A stretch of 64,000 nt of DNA from Streptomyces sp. HNM0575. Lineage in GTDB: Bacteria; Actinomycetota; Actinomycetes; Streptomycetales; Streptomycetaceae. The notes beneath the pieces are model-generated. The model ran no database searches, was not told where the DNA came from, and saw nothing but the letters and a program-made list of their open reading frames with translations. A program made the position numbers and the translations under genes. The stretch is taken from assembly GCF_012726265.1 (NCBI RefSeq), contig NZ_JAASAG010000009.1, positions 186,001 to 250,000 on the forward strand, read 5' to 3'. Positions 8,071 to 27,642 of the stretch are shown here, one piece after another; the first letter of the stretch is position 1; every line of letters begins with the position of its first letter.

Positions 8071-8135
8071 GGACACGGACCGCTCGCACATCTGCTCCGT
8101 CAGACTTCGGAAATCAAGCGGAGGGCAGCACTGCC

Positions 8136-10867: not shown

Positions 10868-10940
10868 CCGTCCCAGGCGGCGTACGGGACCGCGCTCATC
10901 CGGCGCCCGTACGCCGCCCGACCTGAAAGACAATGGAGCC

Positions 10941-13502
10941 ATGGCCCGCGGCAAACTGCGCATCTACCTGGGCGTCGCCCCGGGTGTCGGCAAGACCTAC
11001 GACATGCTCTCCGAGGCGCACCGGCGCCTGGAGCGGGGCACAGACGTGGTCGTGGCCTTCGTCGAGTGCCACGGACGCCCCCGCACAGAAGTGCTGCTGC
11101 ACGGGCTGGAGATCATCCCGCGACGCGAACTCGCCCATCGGGGCGCCGGCTTGACGGAGATGGACCTCGACGCCGTCCTCACCCGCGCCCCCGCCGTGGC
11201 TCTCGTCGACGAACTGGCGCACACCAACGTCCCCGGTTCGCGCAACGCCAAACGATGGCAGGACATCGAGGAACTGCTCGACGCCGGCATCACCGTGATC
11301 TCCACGGTCAACATCCAGCACCTGGAATCCCTGACCGACGTCGTGGAGTCCATCACCGGCGTACGGCAGCGCGAGACCGTCCCCGACGAGGTCGTACGCC
11401 GCGCCGACCAGATCGAGCTGGTGGACATGTCCCCGCAGGCGCTGCGCAGACGCCTGGCGCACGGCAACGTCTACGCGGCCGACAGGATCGACGCTGCCCT
11501 CTCCAACTACTTCCGGCCCGGCAACCTCACGGCCCTGCGCGAACTCGCCCTGCTCTGGACCGCGGACCGGGTCGACGAGTACCTCCAGCAGTACCGCGCC
11601 GAGAAGGGCATCTCCTCGCCGTGGCCCGCCCGCGAACGCATCCTCGTAGGGCTCACGGGCGGCCCTGAGGGCCGCACACTGATCCGCCGCGCGACCCGGA
11701 TCGCCGCCAAGGGCTCCGGCAGCGAGATCCTCGCCGTCTACGTCTCCCGCAGCGACGGACTGACCTCGGCGTCGCCGGAGGAACTCGCCGTCCAGCGCAC
11801 CCTCGTCGAGGATCTCGGCGGTACCTTCCACACCGTCGTGGGCGACGACGTCCCCGAAGCCCTCCTCGACTTCGCCCGGGGCGTCAACGCCTCCCAGATC
11901 GTGCTCGGCATCAGCCGCCGCAGGACCTGGCAGTACGTCCTCGGTCCGGGAGTGGGTGCCACCGTCGCCCGGGAGTCCGGCCCCGACATCGACGTGCACA
12001 TCGTCACCCACGAACACGCGGCCAAGGGGCGGGGACTGCCTTCCGCCCGGGGAGCACGCCTGGGACGCGCCCGCATCGTCGCCGGCTGGCTGACCGGAAC
12101 CGCCGGTCCCGCGCTTCTCACGCTGCTGCTCGCAGCAGCGGGCCCGGGGCTGGGACTCGCGAACGAGATGCTGCTCTTCCTGACTCTGACGGTGGCGGCG
12201 GCCCTGCTCGGCGGCCTGCTGCCCGCTGTCACCTCCGCAGTCGTCGGCTCCCTGCTGCTGAACTACTTCTTCACCGCCCCGACGCACACCTGGACCATCT
12301 CCGACCCGCAGAACGTCCTCGCCATCGTGATCTTCGTGGTCGTCGGGATCGCCGTCGCCTCCGTCGTCGACCTGGCCGCCAGACGCACCCACCAGGCCGC
12401 CCGCCTCCGCTCCGAGGCCGAGATCCTCAGCCACCTCGCGGGCAGTGTGCTGCGCTCCCCGGCACAGCGGGAGGAGGGGACGGAGCTGACCGCACTGCTG
12501 GAGAGCGTCCGGCAGACCTTCGGCATGGAGTCCGCCTCCCTGCTGGAGCGCACGGAGGCCCGTGGCCGGTGGAACTGCGCCGACAGCGTCGGACCGGACC
12601 CCGCCACCCGTCCCGACGATGCCGACGTGGACGTACCGGCGGCGGAGACCACGACCCTGGCGCTACGGGGCAGAGTGCTGCCCGCCGAGGACCGGCGCGT
12701 CCTCGGCGCCTTCGCCGCCCAGGCCGCCGTCTTCCTCGAACGCCGGCGGCTGATCGGCGAAGCCGAACGCGCCCGCCGCCTGGAGGAGACCGACCGCATC
12801 CGCACGGCACTGCTGGCCGCCGTCTCCCACGACCTGCGCACACCGCTGGCCGCGGTCAAGGCAGCGGTGTCCTCGCTGCGTTCGGACGACGTCGCGTGGT
12901 CGGACGCCGACGAGGCGGAACTGCTCGCCGCCATCGAGCAGGGCGCCGACCGGCTCGACCACCTCATCGGCAACCTGCTCGACATGAGCAGACTCCAGAC
13001 CGGCGCCGTCGTCCCGCTGATGCGCGAGACCGACCTCGACGAGGTGGTGCCGCTCGCCCTCAGAGGCGTACCGGAGTCGGCCGTGACGCTCGACATCCCC
13101 GAGACGCTGCCGATGGTGACCGCCGACCGGGGCCTGCTCGAACGCGTCGTCGCCAACGTCGTCGAGAACGCCGTGAAGTACAGCCCGGACGGCAGCCGTG
13201 TGCTGCTGGCCGCCAGCGCCTTCGGCGACCGCGTCGAACTGCGTACGGTCGACCGCGGCCCGGGCGTACCGGACGCCGACAAGGAACGCATCTTCGAGCC
13301 CTTCCAACGCCAGGGAGACGCACCGCGCGGCGACGGCGTCGGCCTCGGACTCGCCGTCGCCCGGGGCTTCGCCGAGGCCATGGGCAGCACCCTCACCGCA
13401 GAGGACACTCCCAGCGGGGGCCTGACCATGGTCCTGACTCTCGCGACCGCCCCCGGCAGGCCCGTTGCCCGCCCCGACCTCCCCGCGGAGACGACCTCAT
13501 GA
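10941..13502 (+). CDS. kdpD: Osmosensitive K+ channel sensor histidine kinase
   Basis: An 853-residue KdpD. Order of parts: N-terminal KdpD domain with a Walker-A-like APGVGKT (about residues 13-19) and DELAHTNVPGS; a universal-stress-protein fold (about 230-365); four transmembrane helices (about 377-483); a GAF-like region; then the kinase core with phospho-accepting H630 in AVSHDLRTPLAA, the N box NVVENAVKYS, the G1 box DRGPGVPD and the G2 box GVGLGLAVARG. All catalytic elements are intact. GGAG just before ATG 10941 serves as ribosome site. It overlaps kdpE by 4 bases. Confidence 0.96.
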   Translation: MARGKLRIYLGVAPGVGKTYDMLSEAHRRLERGTDVVVAFVECHGRPRTEVLLHGLEIIPRRELAHRGAGLTEMDLDAVLTRAPAVALVDELAHTNVPGSRNAKRWQDIEELLDAGITVISTVNIQHLESLTDVVESITGVRQRETVPDEVVRRADQIELVDMSPQALRRRLAHGNVYAADRIDAALSNYFRPGNLTALRELALLWTADRVDEYLQQYRAEKGISSPWPARERILVGLTGGPEGRTLIRRATRIAAKGSGSEILAVYVSRSDGLTSASPEELAVQRTLVEDLGGTFHTVVGDDVPEALLDFARGVNASQIVLGISRRRTWQYVLGPGVGATVARESGPDIDVHIVTHEHAAKGRGLPSARGARLGRARIVAGWLTGTAGPALLTLLLAAAGPGLGLANEMLLFLTLTVAAALLGGLLPAVTSAVVGSLLLNYFFTAPTHTWTISDPQNVLAIVIFVVVGIAVASVVDLAARRTHQAARLRSEAEILSHLAGSVLRSPAQREEGTELTALLESVRQTFGMESASLLERTEARGRWNCADSVGPDPATRPDDADVDVPAAETTTLALRGRVLPAEDRRVLGAFAAQAAVFLERRRLIGEAERARRLEETDRIRTALLAAVSHDLRTPLAAVKAAVSSLRSDDVAWSDADEAELLAAIEQGADRLDHLIGNLLDMSRLQTGAVVPLMRETDLDEVVPLALRGVPESAVTLDIPETLPMVTADRGLLERVVANVVENAVKYSPDGSRVLLAASAFGDRVELRTVDRGPGVPDADKERIFEPFQRQGDAPRGDGVGLGLAVARGFAEAMGSTLTAEDTPSGGLTMVLTLATAPGRPVARPDLPAETTS

Positions 13503-14224
13503 CCGGATCGCAGGCAGCCACGCCGGACCGGCCTCCGGTCGGCCGGATGCCACGGGTGCTCGTCGTCGACGACGAGCCGCAGCTCGTCAGGGCTCTCACC
13601 ATCAACCTGCGCGCCCGCAAGTACCGCGTGGACTGCGCTCACGACGGTGCCTCCGCGCTCCAGCTCGCCGCCACCCGGCACCCCGACGTGATCATCCTCG
13701 ACCTGGGGCTGCCCGACATGGACGGCACCGAGGTCATCGAGGGCCTGCGCGGCTGGACCCGCGTACCGATCATCGTGCTCTCCGCGCGCCACGCCTCCGA
13801 CGAGAAGGTCGAGGCCCTCGACGCCGGCGCCGACGACTACGTCACCAAACCCTTCGGAATGGACGAACTCCTCGCCCGCCTGCGTGCGGCGACCCGCAGA
13901 GCCAGCCCCTCCGAAGAGGCCGACCTGGTCGTCCGGACTGAGGCCTTCACCGTCGACCTCACAGCGAAGAAGGTCCGCCGCGACGGCTCCGACATCCGCC
14001 TCACCCCCACCGAGTGGCACGTCCTCGAAGTGCTCGTACGCAACACGGGTCGGCTGGTCACCCAGGTACAGCTGCTGCACGAAGTCTGGGGCCCCACCTA
14101 CGGGACGGAGACCAACTACCTGCGCGTCTACATGGCCCAGCTCCGGCGCAAGCTGGAACCGGACCCCGCACACCCGCGGCACCTCGTGACCGAGGCCGGC
14201 ATGGGCTACCGCTTCGAGCGGTAG
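13499..14224 (+). CDS. kdpE: OmpR-family response regulator of kdp
   Basis: A 241-residue OmpR/PhoB-type regulator: receiver domain with the acidic pocket VVDDE, phospho-acceptor D68 in ILDLGLPDMDG, switch residues in LSARH and the KPF lysine; then a winged-helix domain (LTPTEWHVLEVLVRN, THYLRVYMAQLRRKLE-like NYLRVYMAQLRRKLE, GMGYRF). Starts at ATG 13499 inside the end of kdpD. Its probable site is the 11-bp direct repeat array at 6091-6144. Together with KdpD it should switch on kdpFABC when K+ is scarce. Confidence 0.96.
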   Translation: MTGSQAATPDRPPVGRMPRVLVVDDEPQLVRALTINLRARKYRVDCAHDGASALQLAATRHPDVIILDLGLPDMDGTEVIEGLRGWTRVPIIVLSARHASDEKVEALDAGADDYVTKPFGMDELLARLRAATRRASPSEEADLVVRTEAFTVDLTAKKVRRDGSDIRLTPTEWHVLEVLVRNTGRLVTQVQLLHEVWGPTYGTETNYLRVYMAQLRRKLEPDPAHPRHLVTEAGMGYRFER

Positions 14225-14263
14225 GCCCCATGGATCAGGGTCGCCTGACCCGGGTGACCTGTT

Positions 14264-14314
14264 GGTGCTCGGCTGCTGTCGGTGCTCGGCTGCCGTTGGT
14301 GCTCGGCTGCCGTT
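14264..14314. repeat. Three tandem 17-bp repeats between convergent genes
   Basis: The unit GGTGCTCGGCTGCYGTY occurs at 14264-14280, 14281-14297 and 14298-14314; the last two are identical. It lies between the end of kdpE and the end of the convergent permease gene. It has no strong internal dyad. Probably a slippage-prone spacer; no coding or protein-binding role can be supported. Confidence 0.7.
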
Positions 14315-14324
14315 GGCCGTCGTC

Positions 14325-15107
14325 CTACCGCGGCCCGGGGCGGTGCAGGCGTCCGCGGGCGATGAGTTCGAGGGTGAGGGCGGTGGCCAGGGCTTGGACG
14401 GCCATCAAGGCGATGAGGACGAAGAGTTGGACTGCGCCCGCGGACAGGGGGCCGGCGCCGCCGAGGAGCATTCCGACGAAGGCTCCGGGAAGGGTCACCA
14501 GGCCGACGGTGCGGGTCTGGTCGAGGCCCGGGATCAGCGCGTCGGACGCGGAAGGCCGGGCGATCTCCAGGCGGGCGTCCCGCTCGCTCAGCCCGAGGAC
14601 CAGCCCCGCTTCCACCTCGCCGTGCCGGTGGTCGAGTGCGTCCAGCGCGCGGCGTCCTGCCAGGGAGGTAGCGGTCAGCGCCCCGCCGATGAGGATGCCC
14701 GTCACGGGGATAAGAACGATGCCTTTGAAGGGGACCAGTTCGGTGAGCAGGAGCGCGGCGACGACGGGCAGCACGGGCGAGGCGATCGGTATCGCGGCCG
14801 TCCACCAGGAGCGGTCAGCGGTGATGCGGCGTCCGGCGGTGCGGACGGCCACGGCCAGCATCAGCAGCAGAAAGGCGAGCGTGGCGAGGAAAGAGCGGAC
14901 CACCCAGACGATCACTGCGGAGACGGCGGCGAGTTGAACCGTGGCCCGCACGCCGGCCAGCAGGATCTGGCGTACGCGGCTGCCGCGCCCACCGTCCGGT
15001 GCCAGGTGGAAGACGGCGGCGATGCCCGCGGCGGCAAGCAGAAGGGCGACGAGGAGGACCGCCAGGGTCGCGTTGACCGGCAGGAGCGAGGCTGCGCTCA
15101 GCTGCAT
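14325..15107 (-). CDS. FetB/YbbM-like (UPF0014) ABC transporter permease
   Basis: A 260-residue polytopic membrane protein of the UPF0014/FetB family; E. coli FetB with the ATPase FetA exports iron. Features: about seven hydrophobic segments, VRATVQLAAVSAVIVWVV, PVTGILIGGALTATSLAGRRAL, and the loop LGLSERDARLEIARPSASDALIPGLDQTRTVGLVTLPGAFVGMLLGG that contacts the ATPase. No ATPase gene is adjacent, so the partner is elsewhere or the gene is orphaned. ATG 15107 is chosen over longer in-frame starts because the family length is about 259 and the extra N-terminus is not hydrophobic. Confidence 0.85.
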   Translation of the reverse strand: MQLSAASLLPVNATLAVLLVALLLAAAGIAAVFHLAPDGGRGSRVRQILLAGVRATVQLAAVSAVIVWVVRSFLATLAFLLLMLAVAVRTAGRRITADRSWWTAAIPIASPVLPVVAALLLTELVPFKGIVLIPVTGILIGGALTATSLAGRRALDALDHRHGEVEAGLVLGLSERDARLEIARPSASDALIPGLDQTRTVGLVTLPGAFVGMLLGGAGPLSAGAVQLFVLIALMAVQALATALTLELIARGRLHRPGPR

Positions 15108-15258
15108 GGGGCGAGTGTCCTTCCCGGCAGGACCCGCGTCCAGGGCTTCCAGAGCGGCGGAATGAGCGGCGGTTCTGTGGAGGGGACGGCGGCCACGGGC
15201 GCTAAACGTTCGCTCTATGTGCGGGAACCGCAAACGGCGGCCCTGGCCGTATCCGGAT

Positions 15259-16518
15259 CTACTTCAAGAGGTCCTCTTCGAACGGAAAGCGGGAGAGAAT
15301 CTCTCTGCCGGTCTCGGTGATCAGAACTTGCTCTTCAAGCTTTACCCCCTCGGCTCCGCCCTCCAGGCCGATATAGCTCTCCACGCAGATCACCATGCCG
15401 GGCACGATCTCGCCGTCGTACCCGGAAGCAGGGAAATCGCCTTCGTGATACAGGTACGGATACTCCCCGGTCATGCCACAGCCGTGTGCCGAGAGGTAGT
15501 ACCGGTTCGCGTAGTAATCCTCGGGAATCTCCCAGGCTTCTCTCGCGTAATCCCGAAAACTCATGTGGGGACGCAGGATCGACATGTTGTGATGAAGCTG
15601 CTCGTACGCGACCTTGTAGAGCTTCCTCTGTTCCCGGGACGGCGTCCCCGGCCCCGAGTGGAAGGTCCTGGAGAAGTCCGAGTAGTAGCCGTGGCAGCCC
15701 ACGACGTCGGTATCGAGAGCGATCAACTCGTCGGCCCCGACGATGTTCCCGCCCGTCTCCTGGAACCAGGGATTGGTCCGCTGCCCGGCGTTCAGCAGTC
15801 GCGTTTCGATGTAGTCGCCGTTCTGGGCGATGACCGACCGATGCAGCACCGACCACAGTTCGGCTTCGCTCAGGCCCGGCTCGATCGCCTCGCGGAGTGC
15901 GCCCACGCCGATCTCGGTTGCCCGAAGCGACGCAGCGACACACTTCAGCTCTTCGGGCGATTTCACCGATCTCGCGATCTCCACCGCATGCTGGGCGTCG
16001 ACTACCCGGATTCCACTGCCGTTCAGTTCGATCGCAGCCCCTGCGTTCAGCCTCTCGAGGCCGACCGTTGCGCGGTCTCCGGCAAGCCGGGAGATCTCCT
16101 CCGCCATCTCCTGTGCCCAGGCACGCTCGGACGCGGCGATTTGAGGTCCCGCGGCGACGAAGCTGGCGGTCCTGGCGGGCCGGACTTCGTCGATGGTCTC
16201 AAGACCTTCGGCGAGGTGCATGCAGCCGGTGAACTCGTAGAGAATCGAGTGGTCCTGAGTGAGAAGCAGGTATCGCGCCGGGGCGTTGCGCATGGAGAAG
16301 ACCTGCATGTTCCGCGCTCCGGTCGCATAGCGGATGTTGACCGGATCAGAAAGGATCACTGCGTCCACGCCGAGTGCCGCCATCCGGGATCGGACTCTGC
16401 TCAGCCGGTACCGTCGCACGGCGACGAGATCGATCCCCTGGTCGGCAGCAGGTTCGCGATCCAGCTGCGCAAGGCCTTCCAGATCTCCGCGTTCTGCGTG
16501 CCAGTCCAGTTCCGTCAT
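15259..16518 (-). CDS. M24-family metalloprotein, DddP-like (possible DMSP lyase) or Xaa-Pro peptidase
   Basis: A 419-residue creatinase/aminopeptidase P-fold protein with N-terminal creatinase-like domain (about 25-185) and pita-bread domain (190-410). Metal ligands are readable: D271, D281 (DVVGCHGYYSDFSRTF), H345 (SAHGCG), E380 (ICVESYIG) and E395 (GVKLEEQ), plus an extra D269. As I recall them, the ligands of the dimethylsulfoniopropionate lyase DddP are D295, D297, D307, H371, E406 and E421; the spacings (2, 10, 64, 35, 15) are identical here. Other shared-looking stretches are TNPWFQE and YEQLHHNMSILRP. So a DddP-like lyase is a serious alternative to peptidase. AGGAAGAGGAA precedes ATG 16518. 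The family is certain; the reaction is inference. Confidence 0.7.
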   Translation of the reverse strand: MTELDWHAERGDLEGLAQLDREPAADQGIDLVAVRRYRLSRVRSRMAALGVDAVILSDPVNIRYATGARNMQVFSMRNAPARYLLLTQDHSILYEFTGCMHLAEGLETIDEVRPARTASFVAAGPQIAASERAWAQEMAEEISRLAGDRATVGLERLNAGAAIELNGSGIRVVDAQHAVEIARSVKSPEELKCVAASLRATEIGVGALREAIEPGLSEAELWSVLHRSVIAQNGDYIETRLLNAGQRTNPWFQETGGNIVGADELIALDTDVVGCHGYYSDFSRTFHSGPGTPSREQRKLYKVAYEQLHHNMSILRPHMSFRDYAREAWEIPEDYYANRYYLSAHGCGMTGEYPYLYHEGDFPASGYDGEIVPGMVICVESYIGLEGGAEGVKLEEQVLITETGREILSRFPFEEDLLK

Positions 16519-16559
16519 TTCCTCTTCCTGATCGATTTCTCTTCCTGATTCAGGACGAG

Positions 16560-16643
16560 CTAGCCGGTCCGTTCACGGTCATGTCGAGGCCGGCCATGAG
16601 GGAAGAACATGATGACCAGCAGAATCGCGATCACTGAAGTCAC
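16560..16643 (-). pseudogene. 27-codon membrane-protein tail, possible remnant of an ABC permease
   Basis: Starting at a GTG that overlaps the stop of the FAD monooxygenase (GTGA) is a short frame, VTSVIAILLVIMFFPHGR followed by basic residues and TAG. The hydrophobic segment ending in FFPHG resembles the last helix of branched-chain amino-acid-type permeases (LivH/LivM), which often end in a helix plus F-P-x-G. It could therefore be the 3' scar of a permease once located before the M24 gene, or a short coupled peptide. Evidence is slight. Confidence 0.25.
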
Positions 16644-17824
16644 GGGGGTGTCCAGGAGAAGGTGCCGGCGGAGGTGTTGAGGAAGAGAGCGGTCGGGACG
16701 AGGGTGGCGACCAGGTCACGCGCGGCGGCGGCGATCGGGCTGCGAGCCTGGGCGATGCGCCCGGCCTTGGCGGATGTGCGGACTAGTCTCTGCGTGCGGG
16801 GGCGGCGCTCCTGGTCGTAGCGGCCGAGCCCGGTGTCGACTTCGGTGTCGGAGCGGGCGGGTCCGGCGTGGACGGCGAGCGTCACCGCGTCTTCGAGAGC
16901 GAGTGCGGCTCCTTGGCCGAGGTCGGGAGTCATGGCGTGCGCGGCGTCGCCGAGCAGTACGACTCGCCCACGCACATAGGACGGCAAGGGGGTCGCCTGC
17001 GTATAGACGTCGGTCCGGATCAAGGCGGATTCCGGCGTGGCCGCGAGCAGTTGCGGAATGGGTGCGTGCCAGTGGCGGACGCGGTGGGCGAGGTCCGTCA
17101 CCCGGATCTGCTGCTGTGAGCCCTCGGGGGCGGATTCGCAGAAGAACCAGTAGACGCGGTCGTCGGGAAGGGGCACTACCCCCACCCGCCGTCCGCGGCC
17201 CCAGGTTTCGACGACTGCCGTCTCAAGGCTGATCCCAGCGGTGCGCTGAGCGGGGACGATGCCGCGCCAGGCGACGTATCCGGCGTATTCGGGCTGAGGG
17301 TGGCCGGGGAAGGCCACCGTGCGGAGGGCGCTGCGGAGGCCGTCGGCTCCCACCACGAGATCGGCCTGTGCGGTCGTGAGACCGTCGGGCCCCTCGAACG
17401 TCACGGTGGCACGGTCGGTGTCGGCGGTGACTGTGACGGCCCGGTGCCCTGGGTGCAGCGTCACGTTGCCGTAGGACTCGAGTCCGGCCATCAAGAGCTG
17501 GTGCACGTCCGCACGATGCAGTACGAACGCCGGCTCACCGAACCGCTCTTGAAGGTCTGCGAGACGTGTCCGCATCAGCCAGCGCCCCCGTGCGGTCCGC
17601 AGTCCGGCTGATCCCTGTCTCATCCCGTGGGCGCGCAACCCTTCGCCGAGGCCGAGCCAGTCCACGGCGCGTACCGCGTTGGGCTCGATGGCCAGGCCCG
17701 CTCCGATCGCGCCGAACTGCCCTGCGCGTTCATGGACCCTGACTCGCCATCCGGCACGGGCCAGACCCCGCGTCACCGCGAGGCCGCCGATCCCGGCGCC
17801 GACGACGATCGCTGAGCGTTCCAT
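16640..17824 (-). CDS. FAD-dependent monooxygenase (salicylate hydroxylase/zeaxanthin epoxidase-like)
   Basis: A 394-residue flavoprotein monooxygenase of the shorter UbiH/NahG type. Motifs: GxGxxG in IVVGAGIGGLAVTRGLARAG (residues 5-24), VGADGLRSALR for the DG motif, and LLGDAAHAMTPDLGQGAALALEDA for the second FAD site. No membrane anchor or signal. Start ATG 17824 with GAGGTGAGG just upstream; an in-frame extension of about 105 codons further upstream is not similar to flavoenzymes. It probably hydroxylates or epoxidises a small aromatic or olefinic compound; the substrate is unknown. It is followed immediately by the small remnant frame and then the M24 gene in the same direction, so the three may be co-transcribed. 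Confidence 0.85.
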   Translation of the reverse strand: MERSAIVVGAGIGGLAVTRGLARAGWRVRVHERAGQFGAIGAGLAIEPNAVRAVDWLGLGEGLRAHGMRQGSAGLRTARGRWLMRTRLADLQERFGEPAFVLHRADVHQLLMAGLESYGNVTLHPGHRAVTVTADTDRATVTFEGPDGLTTAQADLVVGADGLRSALRTVAFPGHPQPEYAGYVAWRGIVPAQRTAGISLETAVVETWGRGRRVGVVPLPDDRVYWFFCESAPEGSQQQIRVTDLAHRVRHWHAPIPQLLAATPESALIRTDVYTQATPLPSYVRGRVVLLGDAAHAMTPDLGQGAALALEDAVTLAVHAGPARSDTEVDTGLGRYDQERRPRTQRLVRTSAKAGRIAQARSPIAAAARDLVATLVPTALFLNTSAGTFSWTPP

Positions 17825-18357
17825 CGCCTCACCTCTTCTGAAGCGTTCGTCTTGAGCGAGCGTACTGATGCCGATGCCGGCGAAAGCCCGTGGGCGACGA
17901 GATCCGACCGGTGCGCACGGCTCACGGCTTCCACGCCGGGAGCCCCGCGGCCTCCCGAGACGATGCAGGCCGGTAACGGAGCAGGCGCCTTCTAAGCGCT
18001 TGGCCGCAGAGTCGAACTCTGCCGACGTCGCGTGTGGCCGAACCAGGTAGACGCCCGTGGCGGTCACCACGCTGACGGGGCGGCCGGGCCGCGTCGCCAT
18101 TCCCACGTGGCCGCATCGCAGATGTCCGGTGTTGTCCACGTTGTCCGTGACTTCGATGTGGACGTGTTTGCCTCGGGCTACCAGGAGTCAACGCACTGTG
18201 CTGTCATGACTTCCAGCGCAGTGCGTCGCTGGTGCCCATACGGCGTCCACGTCGGAAGTGGCTCTTTCGGGAAGGGAGGGCCGGTCACGGCACCGCCGGG
18301 CCCGACCGACCCGACACGCGTGGCCCACACCCCCTCAGAGATCGCAGGAATGACGAC
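17825..18357. other. Intergenic stretch between divergent genes
   Basis: About 530 bases hold the promoters for the FAD monooxygenase (leftward) and the sigma/LamG fusion gene (rightward). A minus-strand frame through about 18000-18100 has plausible codon use (VSVVTATGVYLVRP, then TSAEFDSAAKRLEGAC) but no recognised family and no convincing start. A perfect 7-bp inverted repeat GCAGAGT-CGA-ACTCTGC is at 18006-18022. Nothing else stands out. Confidence 0.4.
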
Positions 18358-20301
18358 TTGTCCGAACGATGGCAAGACACCGGCGCCGCGCCGGGCGACG
18401 GCAATGGGTCACTCTCCGACCTGGACGACATCGCCCTGGTCAAGAGAGCGGCGCGGGAACCCGAATCGGTCGAGCACGTCGTGGAGGAGCTGAGCGCACG
18501 CCACCTCCTGGCGGTGACCGCCTACGCATCGCTGTGTGCCTCTGCGGAGGGCGGCGCCGAGACCCTGGCGGCCGCGGGGATCCGATCGGCCGTGCTGGAG
18601 GCGGAACCCGCCACACCGGACGAGGCGTTGCGGCCGAGGCTGCTGGCCGCCGTGCTGGAGGTGGCCAGGTTGCGGTGGGCGGACTCCGACTCGGACTCCG
18701 ACCGCCGCGAGGAACTGAGCGCCGACCTCCGGGACTGGCTGGAGAGCGGCCCGGATGACGTACCCGAGGACGCGGGGTCCAACAACGCACCGGGGGCCGG
18801 CAGCGCACCCGGGGCCGTCGACCCTGGCCCGGCCCTGCTGCGCAGCACCTTCAGCGGTCTGCCGGTCCATCTCCAAGTCGTGCTGTGGCACGACGTGGTC
18901 GAGCGCGAGGAGCCCGCCGCCATCGGCCGTCTGCTGGGCGCATCGCCCGACACCGTCCGAGGCTGGCGCGGAAGCGCCCGCGCCAAGTTCCGGGATGCCT
19001 ACCTGCGGACGTACGCGGACACGGGCGACAGCGAGTGCCGCCCCTTCGTGCGGCTGGTCGAGGCCGCCGCGGAGACGCGGCACATATCCCCCGCCGGCGA
19101 CGTGGACGACCACCTCGCCGGCTGCGCCTACTGCCGACGGGCCTTCGAGGACCTGTCCCGCATAGAGGACGACTGCGACACCCTGCTCGTGGAAGGTGTG
19201 CTGGCGTGGGGCGGGGCGCGCTACGTCGCGGCGCGGCTGGGCTCCGGTGCGAAGTCCGCCGGCGCGCGCGAGCAGGCGCCTGAGGGTCCGGAGTCCGGCG
19301 CCACGGAGCTCGGCGCGAAGCCAACCGGGCAGGAACCGACGGATGAACTGGGTATGCCCGCCCCGGCGCCGCACACCCCCGGCCCCAACGACCGCGGGGG
19401 CAGCCGCAGACGGCGCACCACACAGGTGGCGATCACCTCGGCCGCCGTCGGGCTGGCGGTCATCGCCGCCGCGGCGTTCTTCGCTTCCGGCTCACACGAC
19501 GGCGCACCGCAAGGCCGCGAAACGGCCCGGTCCCAGGCCGGTCCTACGGTGTCCGTACCGAGCCGTTCCCCGAGCCCGTCCGCCTCCTCCGAGCACGCCA
19601 AGCCGCCGGACAAGAAGACGAAGAAGCCCACCCCCTCCCCGTCGAAACCCCCGAAGCCGGCGGTGAGCGGCGCCGCCCTCCAGTGGAACTTCGACGAGGA
19701 GTCCGGCGGTGCGGCCGTTCGCGACACTTCCGGCCGCGGCAACAACGGCACGGTGACGGGAAGCGGCGCCCTGAGCCGAGGCCACGGCGGGTCGCTCTCG
19801 CTGAACGGGTCCCAGTACGTCGAAGGGGCCGCGGGAACGATCGACACCACGCGGAGCTACACCGTCTCCGCCTGGCTCAACCTCGCCTCCAAGCAGGACT
19901 TCTCCACGGCGATCAGCCAGGACGGCCAGGAGATCAGCGGCTTCTTCCTCCAGTACGACAACTCCATCGACCGCTGGCGGCTGGCGGTCGGCTTCGACGA
20001 CTCCTCCGAGTTGGACGAGGACGAGGCGGTGTCGGCCGCGAGTCCCGTGCTCGGCAGGTGGCAGCACGTCGTGGGGGTCTACGACGCGCCCGCCCGCGAG
20101 ATCCGGCTGTACGTGGACGGACAGCTCCAGGACACCACCCGGCACACGCCGGTGTGGTCGGCGAGCGGCAAGTTCGCGGTGGGGCGCGGCTGGTGGGAGG
20201 GCGAGGTGGCCGACCGCTTCCGCGGCGGTATCGACGCGGTCAGCGTGTTCCCGCGGGCGCTCTCCTCGTCCGAGGTCGCCACCCTGGCCCGTACCGCGTG
20301 A
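18358..20301 (+). CDS. Membrane protein fusing a sigma4-like domain, zinc-finger, transmembrane helix and extracellular LamG domain
   Basis: 647 residues from TTG 18358 (CAGGAA 8 bases upstream). Order: helical region about 15-135; sigma region-4-like helix-turn-helix about 160-222 (GLPVHLQVVLWHDVVEREEPAAIGRLLG-type, SPDTVRGW); an anti-sigma-like zinc finger with H252, C256 and C259 (DHLAGCAYC); linker; one transmembrane helix about 356-377; a Ser/Pro/Lys wall-spanning linker 392-435; and a C-terminal concanavalin/LamG-type domain 438-645 (LQWNFDE, DTSGRGNNGTV, YTVSAWLN, GRWQHVVGVYD, IRLYVDGQ). The topology puts DNA-binding inside and sugar/ligand-binding outside, as in a one-component membrane regulator. 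A sigma2 domain is not evident. Function unproven. Confidence 0.75.
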   Translation: MSERWQDTGAAPGDGNGSLSDLDDIALVKRAAREPESVEHVVEELSARHLLAVTAYASLCASAEGGAETLAAAGIRSAVLEAEPATPDEALRPRLLAAVLEVARLRWADSDSDSDRREELSADLRDWLESGPDDVPEDAGSNNAPGAGSAPGAVDPGPALLRSTFSGLPVHLQVVLWHDVVEREEPAAIGRLLGASPDTVRGWRGSARAKFRDAYLRTYADTGDSECRPFVRLVEAAAETRHISPAGDVDDHLAGCAYCRRAFEDLSRIEDDCDTLLVEGVLAWGGARYVAARLGSGAKSAGAREQAPEGPESGATELGAKPTGQEPTDELGMPAPAPHTPGPNDRGGSRRRRTTQVAITSAAVGLAVIAAAAFFASGSHDGAPQGRETARSQAGPTVSVPSRSPSPSASSEHAKPPDKKTKKPTPSPSKPPKPAVSGAALQWNFDEESGGAAVRDTSGRGNNGTVTGSGALSRGHGGSLSLNGSQYVEGAAGTIDTTRSYTVSAWLNLASKQDFSTAISQDGQEISGFFLQYDNSIDRWRLAVGFDDSSELDEDEAVSAASPVLGRWQHVVGVYDAPAREIRLYVDGQLQDTTRHTPVWSASGKFAVGRGWWEGEVADRFRGGIDAVSVFPRALSSSEVATLARTA

Positions 20302-20340
20302 CCCCCGGTCAACTCGGGCGCTCCACCGCGCAGGGCGCGG

Positions 20341-21213
20341 TCAGGGCAGGCTCGAACCTCTCTGGGCTTGCCAGGCGTCGCCTGCGTCGTCCGCGTCGGT
20401 GCTGCGGCTGAGAGCTTCCCATCGGCCGTCGTTCTCGACGCGCTTGCTCCAGATCTCGCGTCCGTATTCGTATGCGTCGCTGCCGGCGAGAAGACGGAGG
20501 GGAGGCTCGTCGAGGTCCGCGACGCGCAGCACGAGCGCGGCGACCTTCGCCGGGTCGCTGTTGGCGGTCTTCGCGAAGTCCGTCATCGCCCGCATCGAGG
20601 CGCCCACCGTCTCCTCGTAAGGTTCGCTGATCGGTGGCGTGGTCATCGAGGTGCCTGCCCAGTCGGTACGCATGCCGCCGGGTTCCAGCACCGTCACCTT
20701 GATTCCCAGGGGGCCGACCTCCGCGGCCAGCGCCTCGCTGAAGCCGCCCACCGCCCACTTCGCCGACTGGTAGGCGGTCATCCCCGGGGTGCCGACGCGG
20801 CCGCCGAGCGAGGAGACCTGGACGATGCGCCCTCCTCCTTGGCTGCGCAGCACGGGGACGGCCGCCTTGGTGACGTGGACGGTCCCGAGGAAGTTCGTCT
20901 CGACCTGGCGGCGGAAGGCGTCCAGCGTCGTGTCCTCAAGGGATGCACGGTCGCCCTGACCCGCGTTGTTGACGACGACGTCGATGCGCCCGAAGGCACG
21001 GACACCGGCCTCGACAGCTGCCTGCGCGGCCTCGGAGTCGGTGACGTCCAGAGCCCGGGGGAGGATCCGGTCGCCGTGGCGTTCGACGAGTGTCTTCAGT
21101 GTCTGCGGGTCGCGCGCCGTGGCGACGACGCGGTGGCCGGCCGCGAGCGCCTGCTCGACGATCTGCCGCCCGAGCCCTCTGGACGCCCCGGTCACGAAGA
21201 ACACCTTGCCCAT
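20341..21213 (-). CDS. Short-chain dehydrogenase/reductase
   Basis: A 290-residue classical SDR. NAD(P)-binding GASRGLG motif at the N-terminus (FFVTGASRGLGRQIVEQAL), NNAG in VVVNNAGQG, catalytic S-Y-K as VSSLGG...YQSAKWAVGG (Y and K separated by three residues). The C-terminal part with PYEETVGASM resembles the oxidoreductase/retinol dehydrogenase-like subgroup. ATG 21213 was chosen because the Rossmann fold starts immediately after it. It is divergent from a TetR gene, with shared operator-like repeats between; so it is most likely the repressed target. Substrate unknown. Confidence 0.88.
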   Translation of the reverse strand: MGKVFFVTGASRGLGRQIVEQALAAGHRVVATARDPQTLKTLVERHGDRILPRALDVTDSEAAQAAVEAGVRAFGRIDVVVNNAGQGDRASLEDTTLDAFRRQVETNFLGTVHVTKAAVPVLRSQGGGRIVQVSSLGGRVGTPGMTAYQSAKWAVGGFSEALAAEVGPLGIKVTVLEPGGMRTDWAGTSMTTPPISEPYEETVGASMRAMTDFAKTANSDPAKVAALVLRVADLDEPPLRLLAGSDAYEYGREIWSKRVENDGRWEALSRSTDADDAGDAWQAQRGSSLP

Positions 21214-21233
21214 GTCCTGTCCCGCCTCTCGCG

Positions 21234-21304
21234 TAACGCAATCGCTTTGCGTAGAGAGAGCACGGTAGGTCCGCGACCCGCAGTACGTCAAACGGCTTGC
21301 GTTA
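21234..21304. promoter_or_regulatory. Operator repeats between divergent SDR and TetR genes
   Basis: TAACGCAA at 21234-21241 and its exact reverse complement TTGCGTTA at 21297-21304 bracket the intergenic space. In addition ACGCAA (21236-21241) and TTGCGT (21247-21252) form a close dyad with a 5-base gap. The TTGCGT dyads lie next to both starts, as expected for a TetR-type repressor acting on both promoters. Confidence 0.55.
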
Positions 21305-21316
21305 AACTCGGGCGCC

Positions 21317-21982
21317 ATGGCATCCACCGCTCGTCGCGCCCGGTCCGAGGAGGCCAAGGGGGCACGCATCGCCGCGTTCCTCGACGCCGCTCGCGAGATA
21401 GCAGCTCGGGACGGCGTCCGTCACGTCACCCTGACCGCGGTGACGGCACACGTGGGCCTGCATCCCTCGGCACTGCGCCGCTACTTCGAGTCCACCGAGG
21501 AACTCCTGCTGGAACTCACCGAGCGGGGCTGGGGCGAGTGGCGCGACGAACTGCTCGCCCAACTGAGCGGCGCCCACGGCCTCGACGCGTCCGCCGCCGC
21601 CTCGGCCGTCACGACGTCGCTGGTGAGGCTGCCGGTCTTCTGCGATCTGCTCACCCACGCGGCGCTCAGCCTGGAGGGGGCCGTCCGCCTCGAGCGGGCC
21701 CGGCAGTACAAGCGCGCGGCGACCGTCGCCTACGAGGAGATGCTCGACGCGCTCACCGGCAGCGTCGAGCGCCTCGAGATCGAGGGGGCGCGGACGGTGC
21801 TCACCACGGCGATGGGCACCGGCGGCTTCCTGTACCAGCTGTCCCGGCCGACCCCGACACTTCGGCAGCTGTACGCAGAGGAACCGCGCTGGGCCCACTC
21901 GGCACTGCGCTTCAACGAGCAGTTGACGGCGGTGCTCACGGCAACAGTCCGCGGTGCACAGCGTCCTGGCACATCCGGCTGA
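21317..21982 (+). CDS. TetR-family regulator
   Basis: A 221-residue TetR protein with the N-terminal helix-turn-helix (IAAFLDAAREIAARDGVRHVTLTAV, HVGLHPSALRRYFESTEELLLEL) and a C-terminal domain with a TetR_C-like aromatic/hydrophobic ligand pocket (FLYQLSRPTPTLRQLYAEEPRW). It starts at ATG 21317, 12 bases after the TTGCGTTA element. It is divergent from the SDR gene and probably represses both. No other gene follows in the same direction for 2 kb. Confidence 0.85.
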   Translation: MASTARRARSEEAKGARIAAFLDAAREIAARDGVRHVTLTAVTAHVGLHPSALRRYFESTEELLLELTERGWGEWRDELLAQLSGAHGLDASAAASAVTTSLVRLPVFCDLLTHAALSLEGAVRLERARQYKRAATVAYEEMLDALTGSVERLEIEGARTVLTTAMGTGGFLYQLSRPTPTLRQLYAEEPRWAHSALRFNEQLTAVLTATVRGAQRPGTSG

Positions 21983-22115
21983 CCCAAACCGCCACCCCGT
22001 AACCGAGGCGGCCGGGGCATCCGGCGGGAGCGATGACGACCTCACTGATGTGGTGGCGTTCCTCGAACGGCGCCCGGTACGGGGCCCGGTACCCGGGCAC
22101 GTTGCAGCGACGTGA

Positions 22116-22139
22116 TCGAGTCCGGTCTCGAGTCCGGTC
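22116..22139. repeat. 12-bp tandem duplication
   Basis: TCGAGTCCGGTC occurs at 22116-22127 and 22128-22139, in the non-coding stretch between the TetR gene and the convergent GMC oxidoreductase gene. No regulatory function is evident. Confidence 0.6.
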
Positions 22140-22174
22140 TCATCACAGCCGTGGACGACGGGCGGGACGAAAGC

Positions 22175-23689
22175 TCATGTGGTCAGCAGGCGACTGGCGA
22201 ATTCACCGATCATGACGGTTGTGGCATGCGGATAGGAGCTGACGAGCGTCGGCATGACGGACGCGTCCGCGATCCGGAGGCCGTCGACACCGTGGACGCG
22301 GAGTTCGGCGTCCACCACCGCTCCCATTGCACAGGTGCCGACGGGGTGGAAGTAGGGCGTGGCCGCGTCCCGGATGAATGACACGGTCTCGGAACGCGTC
22401 ATGCTCTCCCCCGGTGCCACCAGTCTCTTGGTGATCTCGCGGAAGCCAGGACCGGCTGCCATGTCGAAGCCGATCTCCACGCCCCTGACGAGTGCCGCGA
22501 CATCCGCCTCGTCCTGCAACATGTTCGGCTGGATCTCCAGCTCGCCGCCCTCCCGAATTCTGACGTATCCGCGGCTCTGGGGTCTCGACAGGCCGGGCGC
22601 GATGCTGAAGGAGTTCGGAGGGACGGTGAACCGAGCACCGATCTCGGGGGTGACGTACGGGATTTGCAGTGCCACGAACATCAGGTCCGGCCTGCCGACT
22701 TCGGGCCGGCTCCGGCAGAATGCGACGCTGCCCTCCAGGTTGTTGTTCAGCGGCGGGAGCGAGGCGTTCGCCTCGAAGCACAGGCTCGCAAGGATCGGAT
22801 GCTCCTGGAGATTCCGTCCTACGCCGGGCAGGTTCACCTCCGCATCGATGCCGGCCTCTCTCAGATCGCTCGCCGGTCCGATCCCGGAAAGCATCAGCAG
22901 TCTCGGGGTGTCGATCGCTCCGGCGCTGAGCACCACCTCGGTGAGCGCGGACACCCGGACTGGTTCGCCGTCCACGACGTACTCCACGCCCGTGCAACGG
23001 CCCCGCGACACAAGGACTTTCCGCGCCTTCGCGCCCGTCACGACGGTCAGTCTGCTGCTGTCCTCAAGAGCGGTGACGTAGGCATCCCACGGATTGACCC
23101 GCCGGCCATGACGGACGTTCAGGTTCACGGGACCGACCCCTTCAGGAGCCGCGACGGTCACGTCGTCCAGATAGGGCATACCCAACGACCGCCCGGCGTC
23201 GATCAGCGCTGTCGCGACCGGATGCAGATCCTTCGCGCGCTCGACATGCACCGGCCCGCCTGAACCGCGGAGCCGGCTCTCGCCGTCCTCCCAGTCCTCA
23301 CTGCGCTTGAAGAGGGGAAGGACGGATTCGAAGTCCCAGCCGGTGTTTCCCGCGGCGGCCCACTCGTCGTAGTCCGCCTCGTGGCCTCGCGTCCAGACGA
23401 GCGCGTTGATGGCACCAGATCCCCCCAGCAACTTCCCTCTGGAGAGAGGGTGTTGCCGGTCATGGGTCGACGGGTGGGGTGAGTAGCCGTAGCCGTAGTC
23501 GAAAGACGAGCCGATGTTCTCAACCCAGCGTGCCGGATAGTAGAGGGTCGGCGCGTCCGTATCGGCGCCGCCGTTCTCGAGAACCAGAACACTGGCGTCG
23601 GTCTCCTCGACCAGACGCCGAGCCACCACGCTTCCCGCGGAACCTCCACCGACAATCACGAAGTCGAAGCTCGATTCGCTCTTTCTCAT
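22175..23689 (-). CDS. GMC-family oxidoreductase (choline dehydrogenase-like)
   Basis: A 504-residue glucose-methanol-choline flavoprotein. FAD-binding GxGxxG in FVIVGGGSAGSVVARRL near residue 10, the ADP-binding LVLENGG, the GMC signature KLLGGSGAINALVWTRGHEADYDEWA, second signature GAIDTPRLLMLSGIGP, and the C-terminal active-site pair in YFHPVGTCAMG and SYPHATTVMIGE. In many relatives the second position is Asn; here it is His, as in the choline oxidase-like His/His or His/Asn variants. ATG 23689 with GGACGGAAG upstream is favoured; GTG 23725 would add 12 residues. It likely oxidises a primary alcohol. No transporter or aldehyde dehydrogenase is adjacent. Confidence 0.85.
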   Translation of the reverse strand: MRKSESSFDFVIVGGGSAGSVVARRLVEETDASVLVLENGGADTDAPTLYYPARWVENIGSSFDYGYGYSPHPSTHDRQHPLSRGKLLGGSGAINALVWTRGHEADYDEWAAAGNTGWDFESVLPLFKRSEDWEDGESRLRGSGGPVHVERAKDLHPVATALIDAGRSLGMPYLDDVTVAAPEGVGPVNLNVRHGRRVNPWDAYVTALEDSSRLTVVTGAKARKVLVSRGRCTGVEYVVDGEPVRVSALTEVVLSAGAIDTPRLLMLSGIGPASDLREAGIDAEVNLPGVGRNLQEHPILASLCFEANASLPPLNNNLEGSVAFCRSRPEVGRPDLMFVALQIPYVTPEIGARFTVPPNSFSIAPGLSRPQSRGYVRIREGGELEIQPNMLQDEADVAALVRGVEIGFDMAAGPGFREITKRLVAPGESMTRSETVSFIRDAATPYFHPVGTCAMGAVVDAELRVHGVDGLRIADASVMPTLVSSYPHATTVMIGEFASRLLTT

Positions 23690-24140
23690 GCTTCCGTCCG
23701 ATCGTTGTGTGACAGCTGAACTCACCTGTTCCGGACGGGAGGGCAGCCGTGGTCGCGGTGCCTCGGGCAGCGAACCGGAATTCGTGCGGGACCACCGGGC
23801 AAGCGATGTGCATCGCGTGGACCGAGGCTGTCAGCGCATCGACGGAAGAGCGCGCTTGTAGTGCGCGCAAGCCTGCTGAAATCACCCTGATACACGAAAT
23901 GATGCTACGGATCGGAGGTTCATCGTGAGCTTGGTAACGTCCGCCGGTCGCCGAACGGAGGCCCTGGCCTTGGGGTGACGAGCCGCATGCCATCGGCCGC
24001 ATGCAATGAGAAAAATCCCTATTCCGGGCATGGGAGATTGCCGGCAGGCAAAGTCGATTGCCGCTCTATGGCGAGGAGTTGACAAAGGATTGACTGCCGG
24101 AAGGGAAAAGTCCAAGGACCGGGGCCTTAGTTTCTTCCGC
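23690..24140. other. Intergenic stretch between divergent genes
   Basis: About 450 bases that are less GC-rich than the surroundings (for example 24000-24130 with AGAAAAATCCCTATTCC). It must hold promoters for the GMC gene and for the putative oxygenase. An in-frame upstream ATG at 24006 exists, but the region it would add is basic and not family-like. Nothing further is recognised. Confidence 0.4.
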
Positions 24141-24812
24141 ATGCCCCCACAGTCTTCGAATCTCCCGGTCCTGCCTTACCGGAAACCCACACGCGACCGC
24201 GACTATTGGCTACTGGACGACGTCCTTCCGAACGTCGACGACGTGCGCGCCCGTTGCCTCGCCAAGGACGACTGGCTCGAGGGCTATCCGTACAGGCGCG
24301 AGAGCTGGCCCGGACTGCGGACCATGCCCGGACTCGAACCGGCCGAACTCGCCCGCATCGAAGGCCTGGTGAGGAAGAGCACGGGCGCGAAGAAGCTGTG
24401 GCAGGAGGTCGCTCCGGGCGGTGGCACTCTCAACCACAACTGCATCCAGGTCGTCGGCAAGGACGAGGGCGAGCCCCGCCCGCACACCGACTCGCGCAAC
24501 CTGTGCCGCTACGCCGCGGTGCTCTACCTGAGCCCTGACGCACCGAAGGACTGCGGAACCAGTTTCTACAGGCAGAGTCTTCCGGGAGGCACCCTCGGCG
24601 GAAACATGGTGACGGCGCCGCACAACAACATGGTCGACGCCCTGGGCACGCGCCTCGTATCGCCCGACGCCTTCGTCGAGGACGTGCGCATACCCCACCG
24701 TTACAACCGGCTGCTCCTCTACACCGCGAACATGATGCACACCGCCACCGGCTACTGCGGCAGCACTCTGGAAGACAAGCGCATGACAGCCGTCTTCTTC
24801 TGGATGGCGTGA
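24141..24812 (+). CDS. Putative 2-oxoglutarate/Fe(II)-type oxygenase (DUF6445-like)
   Basis: A 223-residue protein. It contains an HxD pair, H115-T-D117 (RPHTDSRNLCRYAAVLYLSP), a distal H200 (YTANMMHTATGYCG) and a following basic K213-R214 (DKRMTAVFFW), the order expected for the iron triad plus 2-oxoglutarate-binding Arg of a double-stranded beta-helix oxygenase. The N-terminal YWLLDDVLPNVDDVRA looks like the lead-in of a prolyl-4-hydroxylase-like family that I associate with DUF6445; the number is from memory. The start is uncertain: ATG 24141 lacks a good ribosome site, and ATG 24006 would add 45 residues. Its role is unknown, possibly tailoring of a small molecule or peptide. Confidence 0.6.
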   Translation: MPPQSSNLPVLPYRKPTRDRDYWLLDDVLPNVDDVRARCLAKDDWLEGYPYRRESWPGLRTMPGLEPAELARIEGLVRKSTGAKKLWQEVAPGGGTLNHNCIQVVGKDEGEPRPHTDSRNLCRYAAVLYLSPDAPKDCGTSFYRQSLPGGTLGGNMVTAPHNNMVDALGTRLVSPDAFVEDVRIPHRYNRLLLYTANMMHTATGYCGSTLEDKRMTAVFFWMA

Positions 24813-24913
24813 CCATGACGCGCCATCCAGGAGCACCACACCGTGTGGCTTTCGTCGGGCCGGCCCGGTAGAGTGTCCGCATACCCCACCGGGTCTGAGA
24901 AGGCCCGGCCAGA

Positions 24914-24938
24914 CGGCCCCTCACGAGGGGCCGTTTTT
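24914..24938 (+). terminator. Intrinsic terminator / leader attenuator before the NYN gene
   Basis: Perfect 8-bp stem CGGCCCCT (24914-24921) / AGGGGCCG (24926-24933) with loop CACG, followed by TTTTTGT: a textbook rho-independent terminator, rare in streptomycetes. It lies 102 bases after the oxygenase gene and 39 bases before the NYN start. A -10-like TAGAGT at 24869-24874 upstream suggests it may also terminate the NYN leader early. Confidence 0.75.
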
Positions 24939-24976
24939 GTATCGCTGCGGCCGACCGCAGAGCAGGAGCCATCACC

Positions 24977-25591
24977 TTGCCTCTCGTCGTGTACGTCGAC
25001 GGTTTCAATCTGTACAACGGCATCAAGAGCGCCTACGGCCGCCGCTTCCTGTGGCTGGACCTCGTCCAGCTGGCCCGTCGCCTCCGGCCCAGAGAGTCGA
25101 TGATCACGGTCAAGTACTTCACCGCCGCCGTACTCGACGAGCCCGGCGCCGCCAGTCGGCAAAGCACCTACCTCAAGGCGCTCTCCGCGCACTGCGGAGA
25201 GCAGATCGAGATCATCATGGGCCGTTACCAGCGCAAGACGATGCGCTGCCGCAACTGCGGTGAGACGTGGACCAGTTATGAGGAGAAGGAAACCGACGTC
25301 AACATGGCGGTCCACTTGGCCGCTGATGTGACTGCCGGACACGCGAACTCGGCTCTGATCATCAGCGCTGACTCCGATATGTGCCCCGCCGTGCGCACAG
25401 CGCAGCAGACTGCGCCAGGAGTCAACATCGTGGCCGCGTTTCCTCCACGTCGGCAATCCGCGGAACTGCGCAAGCTTCTCCCCCGCTCCTTCACCATCGG
25501 CCGCGGACGACTTGCGCAATCCCAGCTACCGCCTGCCGTGCCCGACCCGGCCACGGGCAGGCACCTTCGTCGCCCGAAGAAGTGGAGCTGA
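24977..25591 (+). CDS. NYN-domain (PIN-like) putative ribonuclease
   Basis: A 204-residue protein starting at TTG 24977, with AGGAG 8 bases upstream. NYN domain: N-terminal VVYVDGFNLYNGI with D8, central KETDVNMAVHLAAD with D107, and ALIISADSDMCPAVR with D132/D134; these acidic residues form the PIN-like metal site. A two-cysteine knuckle, CRNCGETW (C91, C94), sits before the second acidic motif. NYN proteins (LabA/YacP/Marf1-like) are RNA-acting nucleases. The C-terminus is basic (GRHLRRPKKWS), which fits nucleic-acid binding. The gene is monocistronic behind a strong leader hairpin, so autogenous RNA-level control is conceivable but unproven. Confidence 0.8.
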   Translation: MPLVVYVDGFNLYNGIKSAYGRRFLWLDLVQLARRLRPRESMITVKYFTAAVLDEPGAASRQSTYLKALSAHCGEQIEIIMGRYQRKTMRCRNCGETWTSYEEKETDVNMAVHLAADVTAGHANSALIISADSDMCPAVRTAQQTAPGVNIVAAFPPRRQSAELRKLLPRSFTIGRGRLAQSQLPPAVPDPATGRHLRRPKKWS

Positions 25592-25701
25592 CATCCGCTG
25601 GCCGGCATCGCCTCGGGCAAGCCCACATTCCTCCCCGCCGCCCAGGGCCGCACGGACCGCGGGTCGCCGAACGTTGAGTCGGAAGCCGACGCTCAGGAGC
25701 G

Positions 25702-26754: not shown

Positions 26755-26767
26755 GGACCCTCCAAGT

Positions 26768-26834
26768 AGAAAAACTTTTCTGTCTTCATTCGACCCTACA
26801 GCTGCTCGACGGAGGCGCAAACAGAAGATTCTGT
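26768..26834. promoter_or_regulatory. Two operator palindromes between divergent ADH and TetR genes
   Basis: AGAAAA-AC-TTTTCT at 26768-26781 lies 13 bases before the alcohol dehydrogenase start, and ACAGAA-GA-TTCTGT at 26821-26834 lies 16 bases before the TetR start. Both share an AGAA-N(2-4)-TTCTGTC core, and both are AT-rich. This suggests the TetR protein binds twice and shuts both promoters. Confidence 0.55.
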
Positions 26835-26850
26835 CTGTAGCATTGACGGC

Positions 26851-27435: not shown

Positions 27436-27642
27436 TGCAGCCGCAGGGGCAGGCACACGCTGCGCGGTACGGGCCTGCCGGGGTGCGCGGACGCCCCCGC
27501 TCGTTGCCCTGCTTCTCAGGGAGAATGTGCTGCGCGCCGGGCCGACGATCGACGAAGAGCGAAACGGCTTGGCTGACGCCTTTCGTGGTCGGGGTAGTGC
27601 GCACGGTCCTCGTGGCCGTGTAGGAGGTGAGGAGTATCGCGG

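Follow-up and report, generated by a model that had tools for sequence, protein, structure and literature searches.

The closest described systems belong to group ECF52, whose plan joins an ECF sigma factor, a zinc finger, a transmembrane (TM) helix, a proline-rich region and a carbohydrate-binding domain, and SCO4117 is the one studied member of these fused ECF/anti-sigma/lectin proteins named in the reviews consulted (PMC5826349, PMC8999054). According to the same accounts, proteolysis or a conformational change has been proposed to release the sigma factor of ECF52 proteins, and a mutant of SCO4117 with a truncated sigma domain is less severely affected than the knockout (PMC5826349, PMC8999054). 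The carbohydrate-binding domain of SCO4117 is given as smart00776. Predicted glycosyl hydrolase and carbohydrate-binding domains are reported for some ECF52 and ECF53 proteins (PMC10766802), and for ECF53 and ECF48 a C-terminally fused ZAS-type zinc finger with one or two TM helices is described (PMC8999054). Searches of the literature outside subscription journals found no account of ECF relatives that carry a LamG or ricin head.

Two further systems resemble parts of this plan. The sigma-like domain of PhyR, a sigma mimic of Alphaproteobacteria, is described as an ECF fold in which the core- and promoter-binding regions have degenerated, and PhyR itself as a response regulator that contains a receiver domain (PMC8103513); the first trait resembles the protein studied here, the second sets PhyR apart from it. 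IutY of Pseudomonas putida likewise holds a sigma factor and a membrane anti-sigma in one chain, which is cut to free the sigma, but it is presented as a working sigma that answers aerobactin (PMC8999054). The Pfam result for the protein studied here contains no receiver domain. PhyR is soluble and is not known to have a ZAS domain, TM helix or lectin head, nor is IutY known to carry a lectin head.

The window analysed here is a stretch of 64,000 nucleotides from the genome (7.38 Mb, 32 contigs) of Streptomyces sp. HNM0575. The gene under study (18358-20301, forward strand) is a single open frame of 647 aa with a TTG start and the TGA stop included, and its product joins an ECF sigma-like part, a ZAS-type part, TM, Pro-rich spacer and lectin-type head in one chain (Table 1). 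As in ECF52 and SCO4117, sigma-2 and sigma-4 folds (here predicted), a zinc-finger anti-sigma part, a TM helix, a proline-rich region and a carbohydrate-binding-type head follow each other in one polypeptide, and the protein is homologous to SCO4117-type relatives along the whole N-terminal half. The architecture is therefore not new, because the ECF52 description has the same plan. The preliminary description had proposed direct outside-to-inside coupling by a one-piece protein; this fits the anatomy and matches the ECF52 proposal, although the idea is not original to it. A frameshift fusion was dismissed, as most of the relatives fetched have the same plan in one frame. The differences from ECF52 and SCO4117 lie in the head, which is LamG and not NPCBM, in the decayed sigma-2 and sigma-4 sequence with its region 2.2 motif, and in the position of the protein outside the SCO4117-type clade (100/100). 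A fused ZAS and TM are also shared with ECF53 and ECF48, a comparison made by description only. The NCBIfam and Pfam scans of the family showed no match to ECF53, and that the ricin-headed relatives are ECF53 is a guess.

Table 1. Features of the gene and its product, in window coordinates
Feature	Residues (aa)	Position	Strand	Basis or remark
Upstream stretch that accompanies the gene in L145 despite different neighbours		18154..18357	+	AGGA at 18346-18349
Whole gene	647 aa	18358..20301	+	start favoured by homologue L145
Sigma-2-like domain (decayed)	20-118	18415..18711	+	AF2 model, 5wuq_B Z 8.8, profiles; 1.4 bits
GAET at place of DAED (region 2.2) motif	66-69	18553..18564	+	
Inter-domain linker	119-151	18712..18810	+	aa 138-152 modelled with pLDDT <50
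Sigma-4-like domain with HTH	152-222	18811..19023	+	AF2 model; 3hug_K Z 7.5
ZAS-type anti-sigma domain	223-295	19024..19242	+	C227, H252, C256, C259; conserved WGGxxY helix; weak RsiW 5wuq_D fold match
Juxtamembrane linker, RRRR near end	296-355	19243..19422	+	
Single transmembrane helix	357-375	19426..19482	+	hydropathy
Pro/Ser/Lys-rich spacer	377-435	19486..19662	+	extracellular site inferred from RRRR before helix
LamG / concanavalin-like head	436-647	19663..20301	+	Pfam core aa 483-641 = 19804-20280

Initiation at TTG 18358 is favoured over a longer frame from GTG 18232, because the full-length homologue L145 (Streptomyces sp. NEAU-Y11, 65% identity) starts with GTG at the equivalent position, preceded by an identical GCAGGAATGACGAC; the AGGA lies eight bases ahead of the TTG. 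The codon at 18232 is also GTG in L145 and the frame is open in both. Between 18232 and 18358 the two sequences differ by indels of 4 and 1 bases, summing to 3, and by mismatches at 7/41, 10/40 and 7/41 of the three codon positions, without codon-position bias; over the initial 100 codons downstream of 18358 the corresponding counts are 13, 21 and 30 per 100. A blastn search with window positions 10001-30000 delimited the region common to L145 to 18154-20291, which takes in the gene plus some 200 bases ahead of it; the latter are a probable promoter or 5' region. An imperfect inverted repeat, GGAGTCA...TGACTTCC, is seen at 18184-18214 in a stretch largely conserved with L145 and is a possible operator. 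The four neighbouring genes scanned encode an FAD monooxygenase, an SDR, a TetR regulator and a GMC oxidoreductase; in view of these identities and of the narrow region shared with L145, the idea of a common pathway was dropped. Elsewhere in the window (6409-14224, forward strand) the open frames, read by eye, resemble a kdp potassium-transport operon, with genes for a sensor kinase and a response regulator after it. A DNA search of the plasmid collection found nothing, and the protein search of the same collection gave partial matches only (0/88 records at 80% coverage).

The C-terminal part was readily assigned. Laminin_G_3 covers residues 483-641 (E 2.9e-28, 99.4 bits against a cut-off of 27.6) and is the sole Pfam family over its cut-off in the lone window sequence. 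A match of Toxin_R_bind_N to part of the LamG stretch (E 0.064, 13.4 bits against a cut-off of 23.8) was taken as chance or fold-level similarity, and NCBIfam returned sub-cut-off matches only for the lone protein. Residues 357-375 reach a Kyte-Doolittle value of 2.29 (best outside, 1.08) and come after RRRR; because this basic cluster stands before the TM helix, the spacer and the LamG head are predicted to lie outside the cell. The LamG lectin head and the one membrane span of the preliminary description are thereby borne out. A LamG member from the same genome (L004:1051-3396, reverse strand) carries a Gly/Ala-rich insertion within its LamG head.

The zinc motif lies on the N-terminal side of the membrane span. 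The canonical ZAS zinc-ligand pattern is (H/C)-x~25-HxxxCxxC, and C227, H252, C256 and C259, which are among the invariant residues of an alignment of 36 sequences, correspond to it; the HxxxCxxC noticed earlier is thus real (H252, C256, C259) and is completed by a fourth invariant residue, C227. The four ligands are kept in 70/70 proteins, including those of the decayed clades defined below, and C-x22-34-HxxxCxxC is present in 111/115 sequences of the wider set. In Pfam, zf-HC2 matches the homologue L042 at 1e-4 and is absent from the window protein. Modelled in isolation, the ZAS domain is weakly predicted (pLDDT 69.6); its top Foldseek match is RsiW 5wuq_D at a non-significant E of 7.4 (VIA Z 5.0, rmsd 4.8, 68 residues).

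The lone window sequence matched neither sigma-4 nor a zinc finger in Pfam up to E = 1, a result that the preliminary description had named as one that would refute it; the homology rests on family profiles and on the predicted fold. The AF2 model of residues 1-295, built on the alignment of 36 relatives, has a pLDDT of 86.4 and a pTM of 0.82. Residues 22-115 of the model align with SigW (5wuq_B; Z 8.8, rmsd 3.6, 90 residues) and residues 152-222 with region 4 of M. tuberculosis SigL (3hug_K; Z 7.5, rmsd 3.3, 71 residues), VIA Z values of 7-9 being middling by the tool's own note. No Foldseek match of this model fell under E 0.001, the best being 0.073, but most rows of the Foldseek and VIA lists are sigma factors. 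The wider family profile matches M. tuberculosis SigE across both sigma domains (9m9d_F, E 1.7e-7). The LamG-clade profile alone gave sub-threshold sigma-4 matches only against PDB sequences (best E 0.18), so that the sigma homology is argued from the broader family and from comparison of profiles, in which 11 LamG-clade cores match the SCO4117-type profile over sigma-2, sigma-4 and ZAS (probability 100, E 1.8e-38) and a set of 15 ordinary ECFs from this genome with a probability of 95.8 (E 8e-9). Moreover, the segment of L042 equivalent to the window sigma-2 matches Pfam Sigma70_r2 at E 1.4e-13. Taken from these comparisons, the N-terminal half appears homologous to ECF sigma plus ZAS along its whole length. 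The sigma-4-like part proposed earlier is thus sustained by fold and family profiles, in spite of the missing lone-sequence Pfam match, while the earlier statement that no sigma-2 domain is apparent is contradicted by the sigma-2 fold at residues 20-118 and by L042.

This N-terminal half was matched in 245/249 genomes of the taxonomic family, with 0 to 9 copies per genome in that search and up to 11 in another; the genome of the window holds seven members (E at most 3.1e-81; next match 3.3e-5). The LamG-type N-terminal profile matches 378/392 genomes of the genus at E 1e-30, and matches below 1e-80 occur in G000 (6) and G216 (5) only, partly by construction, as the profile contains members of both. 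Some 9 kb separates two LamG members of G000, and the genes in this interval look like Hen1/Pnkp RNA repair genes (L141:7244-19983); in G216 a LamG member adjoins two similar genes (L143:11306-17610), the names being assigned by eye. Two members with in-frame TGA stops (G094:C78:83099-83803 and G079:C1:1613665-1614360) are probably pseudogenes.

The heads of 73 proteins, typed by BLAST to example heads, comprise 44 ricin-type, 12 LamG, 8 NPCBM, 6 none and 3 others; one of the latter (L088:592-2229, reverse strand) has a CBM6 head. The tree contains 72 rows (L052 was left out of tree and groups) and is rooted on the SCO4117-type rows, which were recognised by NPCBM and plan, SCO4117 itself being outside the tree set. 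These 10 rows (8 with NPCBM) separate from the other 62 at 100/100. All 12 LamG rows form one clade (98/83; 99% of 200 bootstraps), in which the window protein clusters with L093, L100 and L103 (100/95) at the end of a long branch (0.7). L019 and L088 are omitted from the group table, and L091, a shorter frame without zinc motif, was set aside.

Fifteen ordinary ECF sigmas from the genome of the window supplied a sigma-2 and a sigma-4 profile (30 sigma-2 places, from which 20 frames were picked and 5, non-ECF or odd, dropped). Median sigma-2 scores are 52.7 bits in the 10 SCO4117-type rows (range 44-69) and 43.3 in 22 basal rows, and fall to 7.2 in 13 ricin-type rows adjoining LamG, -1.1 in 14 ricin-C rows, 4.3 in the 7 main LamG rows and 3.3 in the 4 window-type rows, referred to here as decayed clades. 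Shuffled sequences reach 1.8 bits at 95%, 4.4 at 99% and 6.3 at most. The window protein scores 1.4 bits for sigma-2, at shuffle level, and 6.3 for sigma-4 (shuffle maximum 7.2). Scored apart, L019 gave 19.4 and 11.8 bits with TAED kept, and L088 gave 19.6 and 17.1 bits. Independently of the own-genome profile, Pfam at E 0.01 found Sigma70_r2 in 6/36 members and Sigma70_r4_2 in 9/36, and none of the seven family members is among the 30 Sigma70_r2 places of the genome. Sigma-2 scores are bimodal across the 115 distinct sequences fetched, a non-random sample, with 58 below 15 bits, 41 at 35 or more and 16 between. Against a reading of these scores as loss of function stands the choice of the profile members by SCO4117-type match, which may favour that type, and a low HMM score denotes divergence and would not by itself imply loss of activity.

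The decay is also seen at the residues expected to contact RNA polymerase. The DAED motif of region 2.2 is described as contacting the beta'-clamp and as essential for holoenzyme formation (PMC8103513, PMC8999054). All 10 SCO4117-type rows and 20/22 basal rows retain its D, which is missing throughout the four decayed clades (0/13, 0/14, 0/7 and 0/4, or 0/38, with E instead in 5/38); the following E is present in 10/10 and 22/22 of the former versus 3/38 decayed rows, plus 2 with D. The place of DAED is taken by GAET in the window protein and by GAAT in L145. In addition, VRR is changed to VLE in the window protein, and the net charge of regions 2.3-2.4 is -1, versus 3 to 5 in the SCO4117-type proteins. 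From its sequence, the window protein is probably no longer a working sigma. The main rival, a working though strongly diverged ECF sigma that an outside glycan would free from its own ZAS by proteolysis or a change of shape, has the attraction that the plan is that of SCO4117, for which such a release is proposed in the accounts cited (PMC5826349, PMC8999054). Both sigma folds are predicted confidently by AF2, R92 and W107 are retained, and the sigma-4 recognition helix is still basic (net +3) and mostly kept in L145, which also weighs against loss of sigma function. The shuffle-level scores, the loss of both acidic residues and the reversed charge nevertheless make this rival somewhat unlikely.

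The threonine at the decayed motif admits another explanation, in which phosphorylation of T69 would restore the lost charge and switch the sigma on. EcfP of Vibrio parahaemolyticus, where DAED is likewise absent, is described as having STTA there and as being activated by the Ser/Thr kinase PknT through phosphorylation of the second Thr (PMC8999054). A Thr stands at the same place as T69 in L145, but T69 occupies motif position 4 and not 3 as in EcfP, the other three window-type rows have Leu and the 14 ricin-C rows Met, and no Ser/Thr kinase is found among the four neighbouring genes scanned; we regard this mode of activation as very improbable for the window protein. As a general model it was rejected, the other decayed-clade members having Leu, Met, Gln, Arg, Ala or Glu at this place.

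In 11 genomes, 52 members were scored (G128, with 11 matches, was unscored and two G518 matches were left out), and 32 of them fall below 15 bits. One SCO4117-type member at 47-56 bits is present in 8/11 genomes (in G340 its head was not recognised) and none in G000, G216 and G212, and the proposal that every pseudo-sigma genome keeps a canonical member was not upheld. The proteins nearest to the SCO4117 type in G000 and G216 (L009 and L248) have lost the region-2.2 D and show EA for ED. The genome of the window also has no SCO4117-type sigma that could serve as partner of a pseudo-sigma, a point against such a role, though 30 other sigma-2 places exist.

Selective constraint was estimated as pairwise NG86 omega, which gives rough figures for these short GC-rich segments. 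The sigma-2-like part has values of 0.15-0.35 in 9/10 decayed-clade pairs, with linkers at 0.25-0.88 over the ten; in the tenth pair (L012/L013) sigma-2 is at 0.53 and the linker lower, at 0.31. The sigma-4-like part is looser in three LamG pairs (0.48-0.66), and five SCO4117-type or basal pairs gave 0.13, 0.24, 0.88, 0.38 and 0.12 for sigma-2. Between the window protein and L145, omega is 0.55 for sigma-2, 0.55 for sigma-4, 0.44 for ZAS and 0.45 for LamG (identities 67, 75, 79 and 78%), and 1.53 for the inter-sigma linker, 0.79 for the juxtamembrane linker, 0.45 for the Pro-rich spacer and 2.0 for the 19 codons of the TM helix (48, 43, 56 and 68%). The sigma-like parts thus seem to drift less than most linkers, from which strong constraint in the window lineage does not follow: the constraint between the window protein and L145 appears modest and extends beyond the sigma part, the spacer too giving 0.45, which counts against the pseudo-sigma reading. 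The same figures bear on two other proposals. That the ZAS domain acts only as an anti-sigma upon another sigma, with the sigma-like part as a structural relic or lid, is favoured by invariant zinc ligands beside decaying sigma motifs; but the sigma-2-like part does not drift freely in the decayed-clade pairs, and we hold this proposal to be distinctly unlikely. A surface lectin whose cytoplasmic part decays with no regulatory role would agree with the LamG head, the best kept portion of the four window-type proteins, and with the variable copy number; given the invariant ligands and cytoplasmic domains that change more slowly than most linkers, it is barely credible.

The reading that we put forward, with about even confidence, is that of a membrane-anchored ECF52-type relative whose sigma part is now a pseudo-sigma, forming with its own ZAS a glycan-gated partner switch that does not transcribe by itself. 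It is proposed because the sequence for RNAP and promoter contacts has decayed while the ZAS ligands are intact and these parts change more slowly than the linkers. The earlier suspicion of an activator or a sigma trap gains from this decay in so far as an ordinary sigma is doubted, but its premise, a missing sigma-2, was wrong in fold. In such a switch the pseudo-sigma would be held under the membrane by its own ZAS domain, and binding of a glycan or wall fragment to the LamG head, or cleavage of the chain, might loosen the pairing and leave one half free to pair in trans. The ZAS domain could then capture a real ECF sigma, or the pseudo-sigma could capture another anti-sigma and free the sigma of the latter, as PhyR does with NepR. 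The outcome would be an adjustment of other sigma factors with no transcription of genes by the protein itself.

Extended to the family, and more tentatively, streptomycetes may carry a large, repeatedly duplicated class of membrane-anchored, lectin-headed pseudo-sigmas of ECF52-like origin that no longer bind RNAP and tune real ECF sigmas by glycan-responsive partner switching, a form of sigma mimicry in which anti-sigma and sensor would be part of the same chain. If many of the paralogues are pseudo-sigmas, counts of streptomycete sigma factors would include, where these are recognised at all, some that drive no transcription, and the route of glycan sensing may be to mimic and titrate other sigmas. 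The paralogues with swapped heads (NPCBM, ricin, LamG, CBM6) offer a set for linking glycan to response.
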